Shown in pieces: positions 1,036 through 8,661 of a stretch of DNA of 43,546 bases; positions within the stretch are counted from its first letter, which is position 1; each line of letters starts with the position of its first letter. Both the position numbers and the translations under genes were made by a program. The stretch is taken from contig NZ_CAMHFP010000013.1 in assembly GCF_946184425.1 (NCBI RefSeq), forward strand, positions 1-43,546. The letters run 5' to 3'. The DNA comes from an uncultured Methanobrevibacter sp. Lineage in GTDB: Archaea; Methanobacteriota; Methanobacteria; Methanobacteriales; Methanobacteriaceae. The notes beneath the pieces were generated by a model that was given only the letters and a program-made list of their open reading frames with translations, had not been told where the DNA came from and ran no database searches.

Positions 1036-1818
1036 GTGATATTTGTGAAATCTTTTGAATTTTTATCTGTTGCAAGAGAAGAGAAACCAAGAAACTGCGG
1101 TATAACCATGGTTTTGGATAAAGGGTTAGGCCTTGAAACTGCAGAAAGTCTGATGAATATATCTGGTGAATATGTGGATTATTTGAAATTTGGATGGGGA
1201 ACATCCATTGTACATGAACAGAAAATAATAAAGGCCAAAGTAGAAATGTACAAAAATCATCAAATTACACCATATACTGGGGGAACATTATTTGAATTGG
1301 CATATAAATCAAATAAATTGGATGAATTTTTTACAGAAGCACATCAATTGGGTTTTCCAGCTATTGAAGTGTCTGATGGTTCAGTAAATATTCCTCATGA
1401 TGATAAACTGAAATGCATAGAACTTGCAAAGGATAACGGATTTGAAGTATTGTCAGAAGTGGGTAAAAAAGACCCTAATCTGGATAAGGAACTGTCATTA
1501 GACGAAAGAATTCAGTATATGCAGGAGGAATTGGATGCCGGTTCATCCCTAATAATCGTTGAAGCCAGAGAAGGAGGTAAAAACATTGGAATTTTCGATA
1601 AGTCAGGTAATGCAAAGGAAGATGAAATAGATTATATTCTGAATAACTTCGATGGCAATAAAATTTTGTGGGAAGCTCCAAACAAAGACCAACAGGTATT
1701 TTTCATATTGAAATTGGGAAATACTGTTAATTTAGGAAACATTTCAAGTGATGACATAACTTCTCTTGAAACTTTAAGAAGAGGGCTGAGAGGAGATACA
1801 GTCGGTAAAATTAGTTAA
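1036..1818 (+). CDS. comA: Phosphosulfolactate synthase ComA
   Basis: Catalyses Michael addition of sulfite to phosphoenolpyruvate, giving (2R)-phospho-3-sulfolactate, the first committed step of coenzyme M synthesis from PEP. The 260-residue length is normal for this TIM-barrel family. Typical segments are GITMVLDKGLGLE near residues 22-34, VDYLKFGWGTS near 47-57, TPYTGGTLFELA near 77-88 and AIEVSDGSVNIP near 109-120. The start is GTG; a second in-frame GTG lies three codons downstream and no ATG is available. It heads a same-strand run with the COG1900-ferredoxin gene 24 bp downstream and three overlapping Hdr-like genes after that. comD and comE, which act later in the pathway, lie 6 kb away on the other strand. 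Confidence 0.95.
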   Translation: MIFVKSFEFLSVAREEKPRNCGITMVLDKGLGLETAESLMNISGEYVDYLKFGWGTSIVHEQKIIKAKVEMYKNHQITPYTGGTLFELAYKSNKLDEFFTEAHQLGFPAIEVSDGSVNIPHDDKLKCIELAKDNGFEVLSEVGKKDPNLDKELSLDERIQYMQEELDAGSSLIIVEAREGGKNIGIFDKSGNAKEDEIDYILNNFDGNKILWEAPNKDQQVFFILKLGNTVNLGNISSDDITSLETLRRGLRGDTVGKIS

Positions 1819-1842
1819 AATAATTAAAAGAGGGTAGTTAAA

Positions 1843-3093
1843 ATGGAAAATAGGAGCATTGACCAAATCAACCGAAAGATTGATGATGGTGAAGCTAATA
1901 TTTATACAGCAGAAGAGTTTAAAAAGCTAATCAAAAATGATGATGCACCAAGTTTTGATGAAGTTGATGTTGTAACCTGCGGAACTTGTGGAGTGATGAG
2001 CGGAACAGCCGCCATACTTAACTTTATTGTTTCTCCTCCAGGTGAATTCATAAGGGCTAATGAGGTGTATCTGAACGGTGTTCCGGCATATGCAGGACCT
2101 TGTCCGAACGAATGGTTGGGTTCTGTCGATGTGATTCTTCATGGAACCGCACATTCAGTATATGATGAAAATTATGGAGGAGGATTTTTATTGAAGGATT
2201 TGCTTGAAGGCAAATCAATTGATGTAAGGGTGGAAAGTGCAGACAATAAGACAATTGAAAACACCATAACACTTGATGACATTACACGTGGACAGATAAT
2301 AGGTGCACGTATGGCCTTTAAAAACTATACTGCTTTTACAAACCCCAATAAAGAAGCGGTTAACTCAATATTTGCTGCAACTCCTTTAGAAGGTAACTTA
2401 TCTGGATTGACATTTTCAGGATGCGGTGACCTGAACCCTCTTCAAAATGACATTCCTCATAATGTAATTAAGGAAGGATGTAGGGTTTTGGTAAATGGAG
2501 CTCAAGGTTATATTTTGGGTGATGGTACACGTTCCAGTCCCGAAAAACCGAATTTGATGCTTTCAGCGGATTTATGTAAAATGGATCCTTATTATTTGGG
2601 AGGTTTCAAAACAGGTCAGGGCGGAGAAATATATGACACTGTTGCAATACCTATCCCTGTTTTGAATGAGGAAATTTACAATAATCTGCTGATAACTGAT
2701 GATCAAATTGATTTGCCTGTTGCAGACATTAAGGGACGTCATTTGCCTTTGGATAACACAAATTATGCGAAAATGTGGCAAGGTCATGACTTGAGACCTC
2801 AATTTGACGGCTCCAAATGTTTTAACTGTGAAAAATGCAGTGTTGAAAGTGTCTGTCCGACAAATGCATTCAAAAACAGAAAATTTAATATTACACATTG
2901 TTTCGGTTGCGGAATGTGTGCAAACTTCTGTAATCATGATGCGTTCCAAATGAATACTGGTGATGTTGATTTAACAATTAATGAGAAAAAAGTAAACATT
3001 CCGATTATCTGCAGACAATCTGACAGATTGAGAGGAAACAAATTATCATTAAAACTTAAACAGTTAATTGAAAATAAGGAATTCAGATTATGA
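1843..3093 (+). CDS. Methanogenesis marker 16 metalloprotein: COG1900 (DUF39) domain fused to 2[4Fe-4S] ferredoxin
   Basis: 416 residues. Residues 1-320 form the COG1900/DUF39 domain, with the Cys pair of TCGTCGVMSGTAA (Cys46, Cys49), GCGDLNPLQND and GCRVLVNGAQG. A bicluster ferredoxin follows (Cys326/329/332/338 and Cys353/356/359/363). COG1900 relatives act in homocysteine synthesis, forming a thiol from aspartate semialdehyde and sulfide at a catalytic cysteine with reduction by a ferredoxin-type partner. Here the electron-transfer module is on the same chain. The gene sits between comA and the Hdr-like genes, overlapping the next by 4 nt, and has a GAGGGTAG ribosome binding site. I infer that it converts sulfoacetaldehyde plus sulfide to coenzyme M; that substrate is not shown by the sequence. 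Confidence 0.85.
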   Translation: MENRSIDQINRKIDDGEANIYTAEEFKKLIKNDDAPSFDEVDVVTCGTCGVMSGTAAILNFIVSPPGEFIRANEVYLNGVPAYAGPCPNEWLGSVDVILHGTAHSVYDENYGGGFLLKDLLEGKSIDVRVESADNKTIENTITLDDITRGQIIGARMAFKNYTAFTNPNKEAVNSIFAATPLEGNLSGLTFSGCGDLNPLQNDIPHNVIKEGCRVLVNGAQGYILGDGTRSSPEKPNLMLSADLCKMDPYYLGGFKTGQGGEIYDTVAIPIPVLNEEIYNNLLITDDQIDLPVADIKGRHLPLDNTNYAKMWQGHDLRPQFDGSKCFNCEKCSVESVCPTNAFKNRKFNITHCFGCGMCANFCNHDAFQMNTGDVDLTINEKKVNIPIICRQSDRLRGNKLSLKLKQLIENKEFRL

Positions 3094-3701
3094 CTACTCA
3101 AAAAATCACTGATTCTCCAATTGATTTTGCAGAGCAAATTATTGAAGATGTTAAAAATTCAAAGGATGATGGAGTTTTAAAATGCGTCCAATGTGGAATG
3201 TGTACTTCAACATGTCCGGCAGCACGCCACTCCGATTATAATCCTCGTGACATTATAGAAAGAGTATTGGATGGGGATATAACAATTCTGGAAGACAACA
3301 ATATCTGGAATTGCTTTTACTGTTATACCTGCCATAGTGTTTGCCCTGTAGGAAACAGCGTATGCGAGGTCAATCAAATACTCAAACAATTTGCAATTGC
3401 CAATAATATTGGTTATGATAAGCTTTATGAATATATGGGCTTTGCAGACAGCTATTTTACCGCAGCAATAGGGGCAATACCTGAAATATTTTTCAAAGAC
3501 ATCGACAGGGATGTTCCGGGATGGTGGGATTTCAGACAGAATCTTGATGAAATCAGAAAGGAACTGGAACTTGACCCGCCTTTAATGCCATCCAAGGAAG
3601 TAATAGATGAAGTAAGTAAAATATTGACAATTACAGGTTTTAAGGATAAAATAGAAAAGATAAGAGAATCTCAGGAGGAAGAACATGAAGAACATTCCTG
3701 A
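3090..3701 (+). CDS. HdrC-like 2[4Fe-4S] protein
   Basis: 203 residues with the HdrC layout of two ferredoxin-type motifs: Cys32/35/38/42 (CVQCGMCTSTCP) and Cys75/78/81/85 (CFYCYTCHSVCPVG). An alpha-helical tail with an acidic end follows. HdrC passes electrons between the HdrA flavin/iron-sulfur relay and the HdrB active site of heterodisulfide reductase. The start overlaps the stop of the COG1900 gene (ATGA), and the end overlaps hdrB by 17 nt, so translational coupling is likely. Because it is co-transcribed with comA and the COG1900 gene, and its HdrA and HdrB partners are unusual, I read it as part of a specialised Hdr-like complex, not the main respiratory enzyme. Confidence 0.85.
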   Translation: MTTQKITDSPIDFAEQIIEDVKNSKDDGVLKCVQCGMCTSTCPAARHSDYNPRDIIERVLDGDITILEDNNIWNCFYCYTCHSVCPVGNSVCEVNQILKQFAIANNIGYDKLYEYMGFADSYFTAAIGAIPEIFFKDIDRDVPGWWDFRQNLDEIRKELELDPPLMPSKEVIDEVSKILTITGFKDKIEKIRESQEEEHEEHS

Positions 3702-4626
3702 TAAAGATATACTTTTATTTAGAAGTTGCCTGGTAAGTGTGGAATATCCTGGTGTTGAGGCATCCACTAAATTTGTATTTGACAAGTTAGATGTTGACTA
3801 TGCTATTTCAGATAAACAGACCTGTTGCACTGGTCTTGGACATTACTCAGATGTTTTCAGCCAGATAGATACAACTGCTATCGGTGCACGTAACTTTAAG
3901 ATTGCCCGTGAAATTGGAAGGCCAAATCTTGTAATGATGTGTGCCACATGTTATGCAATCAACAAAAAATCAGTTAAGTTATTGAACAAAAAAGATGATT
4001 TGAGAAACAATATCAATAATCTTTTTGATGAAAACGGATTATCTCATTTGAAATATGAAAAGGACGACTTAAACCCCACTGAAAATATATTTCATGTAGT
4101 TGATATTCTTTATGGTAAAAAAGATAAGATTAAAGAAAATATAAAATATGATTTAAGTGAGTATACTATAGCCACTCATCATGGATGTCATTATTGCAAA
4201 GTGCATTATGAGGACACAATCGGAGGTGTTAGAGATCCGAATATAATGGATGAAATTATTGAGGAATGTGGATGCAAGACTATTGGCTGGTATGACCACA
4301 AAAGAGCCACCTGTGGGACTGGTTTTAGACAAAGATACTCTAATCCTGAGTTGTCATTTACTGCTACGGCTGATAAGATGAATGCAATTGCAGATGAAGA
4401 TGTTGATATTTTGGTGCATTTGTGTCCTAACTGCCATATTCAGTTTGACAGGTATCAGCATTTGATTTCCGAACGTGAAGGCAGAAACTTTAGAGCAATT
4501 CATTTGAATATTACACAATTTTTAGCGTTGGCTATGGGAGGAGATTTAAATAAAGTAATAGGAGCTAAAGCTCATACGGTTCCGATTGATTCTGTAATTA
4601 AAGATTTGAAGGAGGTTTCTAAATGA
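3685..4626 (+). CDS. HdrB-like CCG-domain protein with an altered second cluster site
   Basis: 313 residues with two cysteine-rich CCG domains as in HdrB. HdrB binds two non-cubane [4Fe-4S] clusters and splits the CoM-S-S-CoB disulfide. The first domain is complete: Cys15, Cys47-Cys48 (TCCTG), Cys86 and Cys89 (CATC). The second has Cys168 (HHGCHYC), Cys247 and Cys250 (CPNC), but the expected Cys-Cys-Gly reads Thr209-Cys210-Gly211. Extra cysteines occur at 171, 195 and 197. A GGAGGAAG ribosome binding site precedes the ATG inside hdrC, and the end overlaps hdrA by 4 nt. The altered ligand set suggests a different substrate or cluster from respiratory HdrB. Whether a nearby Cys substitutes cannot be told from sequence. 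Confidence 0.85.
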   Translation: MKNIPDKDILLFRSCLVSVEYPGVEASTKFVFDKLDVDYAISDKQTCCTGLGHYSDVFSQIDTTAIGARNFKIAREIGRPNLVMMCATCYAINKKSVKLLNKKDDLRNNINNLFDENGLSHLKYEKDDLNPTENIFHVVDILYGKKDKIKENIKYDLSEYTIATHHGCHYCKVHYEDTIGGVRDPNIMDEIIEECGCKTIGWYDHKRATCGTGFRQRYSNPELSFTATADKMNAIADEDVDILVHLCPNCHIQFDRYQHLISEREGRNFRAIHLNITQFLALAMGGDLNKVIGAKAHTVPIDSVIKDLKEVSK

Positions 4627-6929
4627 GGGATGATTTAAAAGTTGGCGTTTTTTTATGTGAATGCGGAGGAAATATTGCAGACATTGTAGATTTGGATGAA
4701 GTCCGAGACTCTTTGGATGTTGAATTCATTGGGCAGTTCGAAAATTTATGTTCACTAAATGGACGTAAAATCATAAGGGATGCAATCTTTGACCATAATC
4801 TGGACAGGGTTGTAGTTGCTGCATGTTCTCCAATATCTCATGAAAAGACATTTCAGGATTATGTGAAACCTTTAAATCCTTATTTAATGGATATGGCTAA
4901 TATCAGAGAACAATGTTCATGGGTACATAGCGATAAACAAAAAGCTACTCATAAAGCTATTACACTGATTAATGCTTCAATCGAAAAGGTCAAGCAGTCC
5001 GATGCGGTTGACCCAATTTACTGTCAAACTCCTGAGGAAGTGGCGGTTATTGGTGGGGGTATTGCCGGGATGAATGCGGCATTATCTCTTGCAAAACAGG
5101 GAACCAAAGTGACTATTGTCGAGCAATCTCCTTCAATTGGAGGACATATGGCGAAAATAGGTAAGGTGTTCTCTCCTGTAAAAATTGCTGAAGAGTGTGG
5201 AATGTGCCTTTTAAATCCAATCTTAAATGAGCTTGTATGGAATGACAACATTGATGTTTTAACAAATGCTAAAGTAATTGAAGCTGAACGAAGAGCCGGA
5301 ACTTACAATTTGATTATCGAACAGTCTCCAAGATATGTGGACACAGAAAAATGCATTGCGTGCGGTAAATGTGCTGAAGTATGTGAAGTTGAAGTTCCAA
5401 ATGATTGGAATGATAATCTGTCAATGAGAAAGGCAATTTACAGACCATTTGGGCAATCATATCCAGAAAGCTATGTTATTGACATGGACAACTGTTCCAA
5501 ATGTGGGGACTGCTTTAGAACATGCAACATGAAAGCTATTAAACTCAGAAGCAAACCTGAAAAGTCCCTGCTTCAGGTGGGCTCAATAATCGTTGCAACA
5601 GGACATAAACTATTTGACATGGAAAAAAGGCCGGAATATGGATATACTAGATATGATGATGTCATAACCCAATCTGAACTTGGACGTATTACTGGGGTAA
5701 ACGGACCTACAAAAGGAAAACTTCTCAAATCAAATGGCGAAGTTCCAAAACGTGTTGTGATGATACAGTGTGTGGGTTCAAGGGATGAAAAACCTGACGG
5801 TCACAGATACTGCTCAAAAATATGCTGTACTGTGGCATTGAAAAATGCAAATATCATCAAACACAAGTATCCGGATACAGATGTGTTGATATGTTACACA
5901 GACGTTAGAACTCCGGGAATGTTTGAGAAATACTATAAGCATACTCAGGAAAATGAGGTAAGGTTCTTAAGAGGCCGTCCTGGAGAAGTTGTTAAAAAAG
6001 GAGACAATTTCATTGTCAGAACCGAAGATACTCTTAAAGGTGAATTTGTGGAAATTGAAGCTGACATGGTGGTATTGTCCACTGCAATGGAACCGTCCGA
6101 GGGTACAATTGAAATTGCAGAAACATTGAACATTGGAACAACTGAAGATGGTTTCATCAAGGAATCACACCCTAAAATAAAGCCTGTTGCAACCGATGTG
6201 CAGGGAATATTTGTATGCGGAACGGCACAGGATCCAAAAGACATCACAGATTCAATCATGCAGGCAACTGCAGCTGCTTCAAAAGTTTCAGAGTATAATT
6301 ATGGTGGAGTTGAAATTGAGCCTTTCATTGCAGAAATCGATAATGAGAAATGCACTGTATGCGGTGAATGTATAGAAAGGTGCAAATACAAGTCAATGAG
6401 CATTCAGGATGATGAGATTTACATAGACCCTATGAGCTGTACGGGTTGTGGTAAATGTCTTGTTGGCTGTAAACAGAGGGCCATTACTGTAAATGGTAAC
6501 ATTGATGAGAAAATATTGGCTACAATAAAGGGGGTATTGTCCAAAAAGCGTGAAGGTGAACGCATGATTTTGGTATTTTTGGATAATATTGGTTATACTG
6601 CTGCAGACAATATTGGAGTTAACAGACTTTCATATCCGGAATCAATTCATATCATTAAAGTTATTTCCGTAAATCGTGTAAGGCCAAGGCATATTAGATA
6701 TGCACTTGACAATGGTGCTGACGGAATATTCATTGGGGAATTCCCTGGAGATTTGATGTATGGTGAAGTGGAGCGTAAAATTGAAAGGGTTAAGCAGCGT
6801 ATTGATGAATTGGGTCAAAATCCTGAAAGGGTTACATTTTCAAAAGTGTATATTCCCTACTTCACAGGTCTTGCCCGTAAATTAACAGACTTTGACAAAA
6901 AGATTGCTGAGCTAAATGAATCTGAATAG
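4623..6929 (+). CDS. HdrA-like flavoprotein fused to a cysteine-less MvhD-like domain
   Basis: 768 residues, about 100 longer than standard HdrA. Domains in order: an N-terminal [4Fe-4S] domain (Cys12, Cys14, Cys43, Cys68); a thioredoxin-reductase-like FAD domain starting with GGGIAG at 144-149 and containing ECGMC at 191-195; an inserted bicluster ferredoxin (Cys244/247/250/254 and 291/294/297/301); a C-terminal bicluster ferredoxin (Cys577/580/583/587 and 606/609/612/616); and from residue 648 a domain that aligns by eye with MvhD/FlpD. In MvhD, cysteines bind a [2Fe-2S] cluster that receives electrons from hydrogenase. Here those positions read FLDNIGYT, VISVNR and GEFPGDLMY, with no cysteine. 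It ends the comA operon. Confidence 0.9.
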   Translation: MRDDLKVGVFLCECGGNIADIVDLDEVRDSLDVEFIGQFENLCSLNGRKIIRDAIFDHNLDRVVVAACSPISHEKTFQDYVKPLNPYLMDMANIREQCSWVHSDKQKATHKAITLINASIEKVKQSDAVDPIYCQTPEEVAVIGGGIAGMNAALSLAKQGTKVTIVEQSPSIGGHMAKIGKVFSPVKIAEECGMCLLNPILNELVWNDNIDVLTNAKVIEAERRAGTYNLIIEQSPRYVDTEKCIACGKCAEVCEVEVPNDWNDNLSMRKAIYRPFGQSYPESYVIDMDNCSKCGDCFRTCNMKAIKLRSKPEKSLLQVGSIIVATGHKLFDMEKRPEYGYTRYDDVITQSELGRITGVNGPTKGKLLKSNGEVPKRVVMIQCVGSRDEKPDGHRYCSKICCTVALKNANIIKHKYPDTDVLICYTDVRTPGMFEKYYKHTQENEVRFLRGRPGEVVKKGDNFIVRTEDTLKGEFVEIEADMVVLSTAMEPSEGTIEIAETLNIGTTEDGFIKESHPKIKPVATDVQGIFVCGTAQDPKDITDSIMQATAAASKVSEYNYGGVEIEPFIAEIDNEKCTVCGECIERCKYKSMSIQDDEIYIDPMSCTGCGKCLVGCKQRAITVNGNIDEKILATIKGVLSKKREGERMILVFLDNIGYTAADNIGVNRLSYPESIHIIKVISVNRVRPRHIRYALDNGADGIFIGEFPGDLMYGEVERKIERVKQRIDELGQNPERVTFSKVYIPYFTGLARKLTDFDKKIAELNESE

Positions 6930-7622: not shown

Positions 7623-8165
7623 TTAAAATTGGATGGTATCCATAAATCTATTTTTTATTGATATTGGGTCTAAATCAATAATTGGTGCATCTGAATTTCC
7701 AGCTTCAGTTTTATATACGATAAAACTGGCATTACTACTTCCAATAATTTCTTTTAAATCAATATCGTTAAAATTAAAACTATTTTTAAATCCAACGCTT
7801 TTTGCAATTTCACATAGATCAACTACTTGAGCATAGGTATCCTGGTTTCCTGTCGAACCGTATGCACCATTGTCAATCACAATCCAGGTCAGATTCTTGG
7901 GATTATTTGCAAAAATTGTTACAAGTGACCCCATGTTCATTAAAAGAGATCCGTCTCCATCGATTACAACAACATCTTTATCTGGACGGGCTATTGCAAG
8001 GCCGAAACCAATTGAAGATGCAAGTCCCATTGAACCGATCATATAGAAGTTTTCTTTTCTATCTTCAATGTCATATAATTCTCTTGATGGAAATCCTATA
8101 TTGCATATAACAAGTTCATCGTCAATATTTTTCATTATTTCTGTAATTGCTTCTCTTCTTGCCAT
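7623..8165 (-). CDS. comE: Sulfopyruvate decarboxylase beta subunit ComE
   Basis: With ComD, this decarboxylates 3-sulfopyruvate to sulfoacetaldehyde in coenzyme M synthesis, using thiamine diphosphate. The 180-residue chain carries the TPP/Mg motif starting GDGS at residues 70-73 (IDGDGSLLMNMGS) and ending at Asn98 of VIDNGAYGSTGNQ, plus the conserved GSMGLASSIGFGLA at 44-57. The start lies 4 bp after the comD stop, with a GGTGAT ribosome binding site overlapping that stop, so the two subunits are translated together. The length matches the family. Confidence 0.95.
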   Translation of the reverse strand: MARREAITEIMKNIDDELVICNIGFPSRELYDIEDRKENFYMIGSMGLASSIGFGLAIARPDKDVVVIDGDGSLLMNMGSLVTIFANNPKNLTWIVIDNGAYGSTGNQDTYAQVVDLCEIAKSVGFKNSFNFNDIDLKEIIGSSNASFIVYKTEAGNSDAPIIDLDPISIKNRFMDTIQF

Positions 8166-8169
8166 ATTA

Positions 8170-8661
8170 TCACCAATAACTAATTTCTAAAAGTATTGAA
8201 ACAGGTTTTCCCTCTTCAGTTGACAAATCCCATGAATCAAAAATTGCTTCATATGCTGCTTCAGGATTCCCAGGCTTGAAGAATCTGAAGTTCATTGCCT
8301 CTAGAATTCTAGGGGTTGATTCTCCCATTGGAACTTGTCCGCAAATATTTTCCCCTTCAGTTCCTCTATGGCTCATAATCATAATAAGAGGAAATTCATA
8401 TAATTCCATCAATGATTTTAGTGCATTTATGGAGTTTCCAAGTCCTGAGTTCTGCATTAAAATAGCTGTTCTTTTTCCTCCAAGATATGCTCCAGCACAT
8501 ATTCCAATTCCTTCTTCTTCACGGGTTACGGGAATATGAGTTATCTCATCATCTTCATCAATCATCTTAAGTAATTTTGATAAGTTAGCGCATGGAACAC
8601 TTACTATAAAATCGATTCCAGCATCTTTAAGTCCGTTAAAAATAGCTTCACTACTATCCAT
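8170..8661 (-). CDS. comD: Sulfopyruvate decarboxylase alpha subunit ComD
   Basis: 163 residues covering the pyrimidine-binding half of a split thiamine diphosphate decarboxylase. The activating glutamate region is [18 protein letters not shown] near residues 45-62, followed by the [14 protein letters not shown] segment and MSHRGTEGE. It pairs with ComE to form the active heteromer that makes sulfoacetaldehyde. It is the first gene of the comDE operon and divergent from cofH across 204 bp of AT-rich DNA that must hold both promoters. The next step, conversion of sulfoacetaldehyde to coenzyme M, is where the COG1900/Hdr-like operon 1.5 kb away may act. Confidence 0.95.

Follow-up and report, generated by a model that had tools for sequence, protein, structure and literature searches.

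In the solved structures of Elp-, Fdh- and Mvh-Hdr, the MvhD-type cluster passes electrons to the bifurcating FAD of HdrA (PMC12350162). The locus examined here raises the question of what an Hdr complex might do when the MvhD-like domain fused to its HdrA has lost the cysteines of that cluster, and when its genes lie among those for coenzyme M (CoM) synthesis. The locus lies on a 43,546-base contig, all of which is referred to below as the window; the draft assembly that it comes from measures 2.2 Mb, and its closest named relatives are Methanobrevibacter.

An MvhD-like domain without cluster cysteines

The hdrA gene of the window (4623–6929, forward strand; 768 aa) is a single unbroken HdrA-FlpD fusion. 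It scored 1413 bits with NF041891 (cut-off, 1300 bits), and the match spans positions 1-761 of the 762 in that profile. The first-pass annotation had read the C-terminus as an MvhD/FlpD homologue that had apparently kept its fold after losing every cluster cysteine, and the homology was upheld by Pfam, phmmer and the predicted fold. Pfam FlpD matched residues 649-764 (6567–6914, forward strand) over its entire 123-position model (E 8.6e-27; 94 bits, cut-off 22.3), and phmmer matched the protein to MvhD subunits whose complexes have been solved (5odc_D, E 2.5e-11). Moreover, when the domain was modeled from 50 aligned sequences (pLDDT 90), Foldseek matched the predicted structure to four solved MvhD-type subunits, 5odh_D, 5odc_D, 8rvu_F and 7bkb_F, all at TM 0.82 (E 2e-11 to 9e-9), and to no chain of another type at E<=1e-3. 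A chance likeness to MvhD is ruled out by the Pfam E value together with the fold match, and the MvhD fold is predicted to be retained without the cluster. The free connectors MvhD, VhuD, ElpC and FlpD are homologous to the window domain and share its fold, but they are separate subunits with cysteines, whereas the window domain is fused to HdrA and has all cluster cysteines replaced.

The complete free MvhD of the same genome (G000:C16), with all cysteines present, was used as the yardstick for ligand positions. Its six cysteines aligned to L653, D654, I656, S682, E706 and L711 of the window HdrA. On the forward strand, the first three fall within L653-D654-N655-I656 (6579–6590), the fourth at S682 (6666–6668), the fifth at E706 (6738–6740) and the sixth at L711 (6753–6755); none of the six columns holds a cysteine in the window HdrA, and the strings FLDNIGYT, VISVNR and GEFPGDLMY are present exactly as first quoted. 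When 57 other fused HdrAs were fetched and compared with the window protein (n=58), L653, D654, Ile or Val at 656, and Ser, Phe or Tyr at 682 were each found in 58/58, and column 706 held Glu in 57 and Asp in one. Column 711 was variable, with Cys in 5 proteins. One Cys alone is not enough to bind a [2Fe-2S] cluster, and a cluster-binding Cys set was found in 0/58 fused HdrAs. Sequencing error, frameshift or a pseudogene is ruled out by the one open frame and by the same residues in the 57 orthologs. The loss recurred in every ortholog examined, adjacent to comA or not; given this and the homology to MvhD, we encountered neither an unrelated C-terminus nor an ortholog with intact cysteines that would speak against the first-pass annotation. 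What did not hold is that the loss is a peculiarity of this protein. It is fixed across the sampled NF041891 proteins and, judged from these alignments, is a family trait of those sampled in the Methanobacteriaceae.

Of 114 Methanobacteriales genomes, 70 have a protein that scored above the NF041891 cut-off, relatives in genus group g11 (probably Methanosphaera) fell slightly below it, mostly at 1180-1250 bits, and a phylum-wide search gave just one further genome outside the order. The idea that cysteine loss is confined to com-linked copies was refuted by the Methanosphaera-like genomes, by other genera and by the paralog at locus L067. Locus L167 was set aside, since its MvhD is canonical and the contig is unrelated. 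A search of the literature available without subscription returned no report of this cysteine loss or of the comA-mmp16-hdrCBA gene block described below.

The loss is selective, since all [4Fe-4S] cysteines of HdrA stay invariant (n=57). These are C12, C14, C43, C68, C192, C195, C383, C397, C401 and C402, eight cysteines at 244-301, and eight at 577-616 that form the C-terminal ferredoxin domain (6351–6470, forward strand). The FAD motif GGGIAG is found at 144-149. A parallel exists in non-catalytic FdhA-like subunits, namely ElpA and, in type II HdrA clusters, the Molybdop protein; each is a component of an Hdr complex that has lost its cofactor and is retained as structure (PMC12350162, PMC12054007), although both the protein and the cofactor are different ones.

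The domain itself is well conserved. Identity between the window protein and its orthologs was 70% in the MvhD-like domain, compared with 64-74% in the other parts of HdrA, for a mid-distance group, and 45% compared with 43-62% for the most distant group. Conservation about equal to that of the rest of HdrA rules out decay under relaxed constraint. With paralog L067 left out, 18 positions of the domain are invariant; 6 are common to MvhD and 12 are not. The latter include L653, D654, N684, E706 and P708, which lie at or beside the former cluster loops. These 12 residues point to a former cluster site that may have been re-used as a surface or pocket. That the domain is a passive, functionless remnant, kept since its removal would destabilize HdrA, fits the loss of its only known cofactor; it is nevertheless very improbable, given that the domain is about as conserved as the catalytic domains, carries 12 newly fixed residues and is kept in all fused orthologs across a deep tree. 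A more serious but still tentative alternative is that the old cluster site binds another ligand or partner (e.g., a carrier protein, a nucleotide or MMP16) that exchanges electrons directly with the C-terminal ferredoxin clusters. Those clusters are fully kept, MMP16 has its own ferredoxin domain, and D654, N684, R685, H690, E706 and P708 are invariant within or close to the loops that once bound the cluster; on the other side, the predicted domain matches no fold other than MvhD below 1e-3, and MMP16 occurs without this HdrA in some genomes.

Flavin site, HdrB and relation to known Hdr systems

Cysteine loss is accompanied by changes elsewhere in the complex. A glutamate that is taken as a mark of bifurcating HdrA, Glu356 in M. 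thermolithotrophicus, positions Lys409, the lysine in contact with the flavin (PMC12054007). The Lys409 equivalent is kept in the window HdrA (Lys407, 5841–5843, forward strand; 57/57), but the Glu356 equivalent is absent, being Gly354 (5682–5684, forward strand) in the window and Gly or Ala in 57/57 fused HdrAs, compared with Glu in three canonical HdrAs. The adjacent hdrB (3685–4626, forward strand; NF041780, 535.9 bits) encodes one complete CCG motif, the first; the second lacks the canonical Cys set. Thr209 (4309–4311, forward strand; Thr in 51/57) stands where this second motif would have the first cysteine of its CC pair, and an extra Cys171 (4195–4197, forward strand; 56/57) lies three residues past its leading Cys. 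This rearrangement may change the catalytic cluster or the substrate. In hdrC (3090–3701, forward strand; NF041890, 326.3 bits), both [4Fe-4S] motifs are intact, with the eight ligand Cys found in 55/55. Because the Glu356 and HdrB changes accompany the cysteine loss, we regard the complex as a remodeled enzyme and not just one that lost a connector. Genome G102 encodes a second cluster-less HdrA fusion, strongly divergent in sequence, together with an HdrB and an HdrC that belong to it (L067, 4424-8541); this HdrB has lost a Cys from the first motif and not the second. The first-pass annotation had also considered a structural or docking role and loss of the hydrogenase link, and both would fit the evidence for this complex. 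Elsewhere, however, the window genome keeps a normal free MvhD and a separate canonical HdrA, the latter divided between two contig pieces, so at the level of the whole cell that link has not been lost.

These features place the complex in a known type. The window HdrA is a member of NF041891 (hdrA_Methbact, the second HdrA of Methanobacteriaceae), with a full-length match and the same fused domain; its HdrB and HdrC match the corresponding families too, and no tested feature of the window HdrA differs from the family, the name of which is silent on the cluster-less MvhD domain. The family is the known HdrA1B1C1 type. For the window HdrA, the second-best full-length profile was NF041778, with 796 bits, which is below cut-off. 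We took NF041778 as HdrA1 of Methanosarcina acetivorans because it scored above cut-off only in M. acetivorans among 14 control genomes and because NF040770 is the HdrA2 model.

The MvhD cysteines were then put back into the window HdrA in silico and the profiles were rescored. The NF040770 score rose from 130.6 to 170.6 bits (+40), and the scores with NF041778 and NF041891 fell by 5.5 and 25 bits, respectively. The NF041778 profile therefore runs through the MvhD-like end and favors a Cys-less sequence, as found in the window; also, the HdrB model NF041780 favors Thr209 and Cys171 by 3-4 bits each. Scoring of these variants suggests, indirectly, that Methanosarcina HdrA1B1C1 very probably shares both the cluster-less domain and the change in HdrB. 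If so, the current picture of HdrA1 may need correction, as HdrA1 is said to lack the MvhD extension of HdrA2 (PMC6019823) and the fused MvhD has been treated as a [2Fe-2S] carrier (PMC12054007). The two organisms differ in that sulfoacetaldehyde comes from a different, comA-independent pathway in Methanosarcina (PMC12713407), whereas the window has comA.

HdrA2 of M. acetivorans (NF040770), a type Ia HdrA-MvhD fusion, has the same domain order as the window HdrA, but it carries the [2Fe-2S] cysteines, and its profile favors Glu at 356; both are missing from the window protein. One could still propose that the window enzyme resembles HdrA2 and bifurcates, with F420H2 oxidized directly at the flavin and the MvhD cluster dispensable, as M. 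acetivorans HdrA2 oxidizes F420H2 without an F420 subunit (PMC5296606; PMC12054007). We consider this improbable: the fused HdrAs lack the Glu356 equivalent, the HdrA2 profile strongly favors Cys by the 40 bits noted above, and the measured Fe content of HdrA2 is consistent with one [2Fe-2S] (PMC5296606).

Linkage, loss and apparent transfer with coenzyme M genes

In the window, comA, mmp16, hdrC, hdrB and hdrA form one co-directional run (1036-6929), which is followed by comE and comD in convergent orientation. The first gene, comA (1036–1818, forward strand; TIGR03849, 328.7 bits, cut-off 280), encodes phosphosulfolactate synthase, the first step of CoM synthesis. The second, mmp16/comF (1843–3093, forward strand; TIGR03287, 542.7 bits, cut-off 364), encodes a COG1900 protein with a ferredoxin domain that belongs to the coenzyme M synthase family. 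The beta and alpha subunits of sulfopyruvate decarboxylase are encoded by comE (7623–8165, reverse strand; TIGR03846, 241.4 bits) and comD (8170–8661, reverse strand; TIGR03845, 225.9 bits), respectively. A gene for a PRK04334-type protein (132-848) lies beside comA in divergent orientation, and many relatives also have it close to the block. The order comA-mmp16-hdrC-hdrB-hdrA is conserved in genus groups g1, g2, g5 and g8; in g7, g11 and g14, the cluster-less HdrA is not adjacent to com genes. In genome G045, mmp16-hdrC-hdrB-hdrA is tandemly duplicated behind a single comA (L068, 3197-15145), and the two HdrA copies sit on different tree branches.

Among 102 genomes of the window's family, mmp16 was present in 87 and absent from 1 of those with this HdrA, compared with 4 and 10 of those without it (Fisher 5e-10, with the caveat that related genomes are not independent). 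Two genomes scored as co-losses, G048 and G074, were withdrawn, as their contigs end inside the block; because contig ends account for both, the hand-corrected tally is 87/1 versus 3/9. The sole genome with this HdrA and without mmp16 is G006, a 490-contig assembly. The nine others, from three genera, also lack comA, HdrC and HdrA of this type; G006 excepted, they are all the mmp16-less genomes without a known contig break. Two of these assemblies (G049 and G073) hold comD-comE and the far flank on one contig from which the block is cleanly absent, and their comD scores lower than elsewhere. The comD-comE genes left in two genomes after clean comA-mmp16-hdrCBA loss (L215, 8381-9425; L216, 8385-9405) have lower comD scores, as if decaying. 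M. ruminantium M1 requires CoM and is without comA, comD and comE (PMC2812497), and M. millerae SM9 was reported to have one more hdrABC than M. ruminantium M1 (PMC4987999). The comA-mmp16-hdrCBA block is lost in genomes that resemble CoM auxotrophs.

The block also seems to have been passed from genus to genus in one piece. In trees of HdrA, mmp16 and, with weaker support, comA, the g8 genomes (G020, G025 and G027) nest inside g1, but a tree of canonical HdrA, which holds G020 and G027, keeps g8 apart from g1. G018 and G027 share the same canonical HdrA, yet G018 lacks the block. Co-loss and the nesting of g8 within g1 thus make it seem that the block is gained and lost as a unit. Given that adjacency alone could yield co-loss and co-transfer, these patterns support a shared function and do not prove one. 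The com-linked HdrA copies form a single clade, and the tree places the loss of the cysteines before the com link, so com linkage is not its cause. Moreover, genomes G100 and G105 (probably also G078) and all genomes in families f2 and f3 have comA, and nearly all of them mmp16, without this HdrA, which argues against a universal need for it in CoM synthesis.

These data bear on a further, possible but not favored, explanation, namely that the complex is an ordinary ferredoxin:CoM-S-S-CoB oxidoreductase of energy metabolism that balances the ferredoxin and heterodisulfide pools and adjoins com genes since both concern CoM. The NCBIfam names of NF041891 and NF041780 are in line with plain CoM-S-S-CoB reduction and count against a role in CoM synthesis, as does the published interpretation of Methanosarcina HdrA1B1C1 (PMC9963511, PMC6019823), and the copies in g7, g11 and g14 lie away from com genes. 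Against this, several genera have lost the cluster-less HdrA with comA and mmp16 while the canonical HdrA stays, the altered second motif of HdrB may change the substrate, and sulfur-related genes are neighbors in several genera. The latter, assigned by profile, are cysS (L060, L066), a MoeB/ThiF adenylyltransferase gene (L046) and sufC-sufB (L035); in one genus, cysE-cysK (serine acetyltransferase and cysteine synthase) adjoin hdrCBA (L049, 6726-8487), which suggests a tie to sulfur assimilation. At L033, by sequence likeness only, an mvh operon lies divergently beside the cluster-less hdr genes. These sulfur-related and mvh neighbors are scattered single observations. The fate that the hdr genes share with the CoM genes points to a dedicated redox helper for CoM making and not for hydrogen burning.

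A proposed electron path

We propose that the locus probably encodes a ferredoxin-fed, likely non-bifurcating Hdr of the cluster-less HdrA1B1C1 type that acts in CoM synthesis or in thiol/sulfur reduction. Electrons from H2, formate or F420H2 pass through the MvhD-type cluster last before they reach the HdrA flavin in the Mvh-, Fdh- and Elp-Hdr complexes solved so far; in the absence of this cluster, entry from H2 or F420H2 would, with good likelihood, be closed. The path that would remain, with all of its clusters kept, leads from ferredoxin through the inserted domain and the flavin to HdrC and then HdrB. In the solved structures, the low-potential electron reaches the inserted ferredoxin domain by way of an HdrA shuttle cluster, and the donor subunits form a mobile arm together with the N- and C-terminal domains of HdrA (PMC12350162). 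The MvhD remnant would rather likely have been kept as part of this swinging arm and/or as a partner docking surface. Full retention of the C-terminal ferredoxin clusters of HdrA would be odd if the donor arm were dead.

Judging from gene context, the product side would be CoM synthesis or thiol/sulfur reduction, a step that we hold at about even to slightly favorable; the complex could supply electrons for reductive sulfur insertion by MMP16/ComF, or it could reduce a CoM-type persulfide or disulfide. In M. acetivorans, hdrABC goes up when MMP16 is deleted; when hdrABC is deleted, CoM falls and cysteate synthase, comDE and sulfonate transporters go up (PMC12068725, PMC12713407); we count these mirrored changes in CoM-related expression in favor of a CoM link. 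Supplying CoM by itself failed to rescue the hdrABC deletion in Methanosarcina (PMC9963511), which counts against it. The more specific version, in which hdrCBA delivers electrons to MMP16/ComF, the cluster-less domain docks MMP16 or a sulfur carrier, and the altered HdrB reduces a CoM-type persulfide, is for now doubtful; if true, it would represent an Hdr complex turned from respiration to cofactor biosynthesis. MMP16 is reported as the CoM synthase, and the electron number, the electron source and the form and oxidation state of the sulfur in this last step of CoM synthesis have been described as unclear (PMC12068725); for that step, the Hdr block in the window is a concrete candidate.
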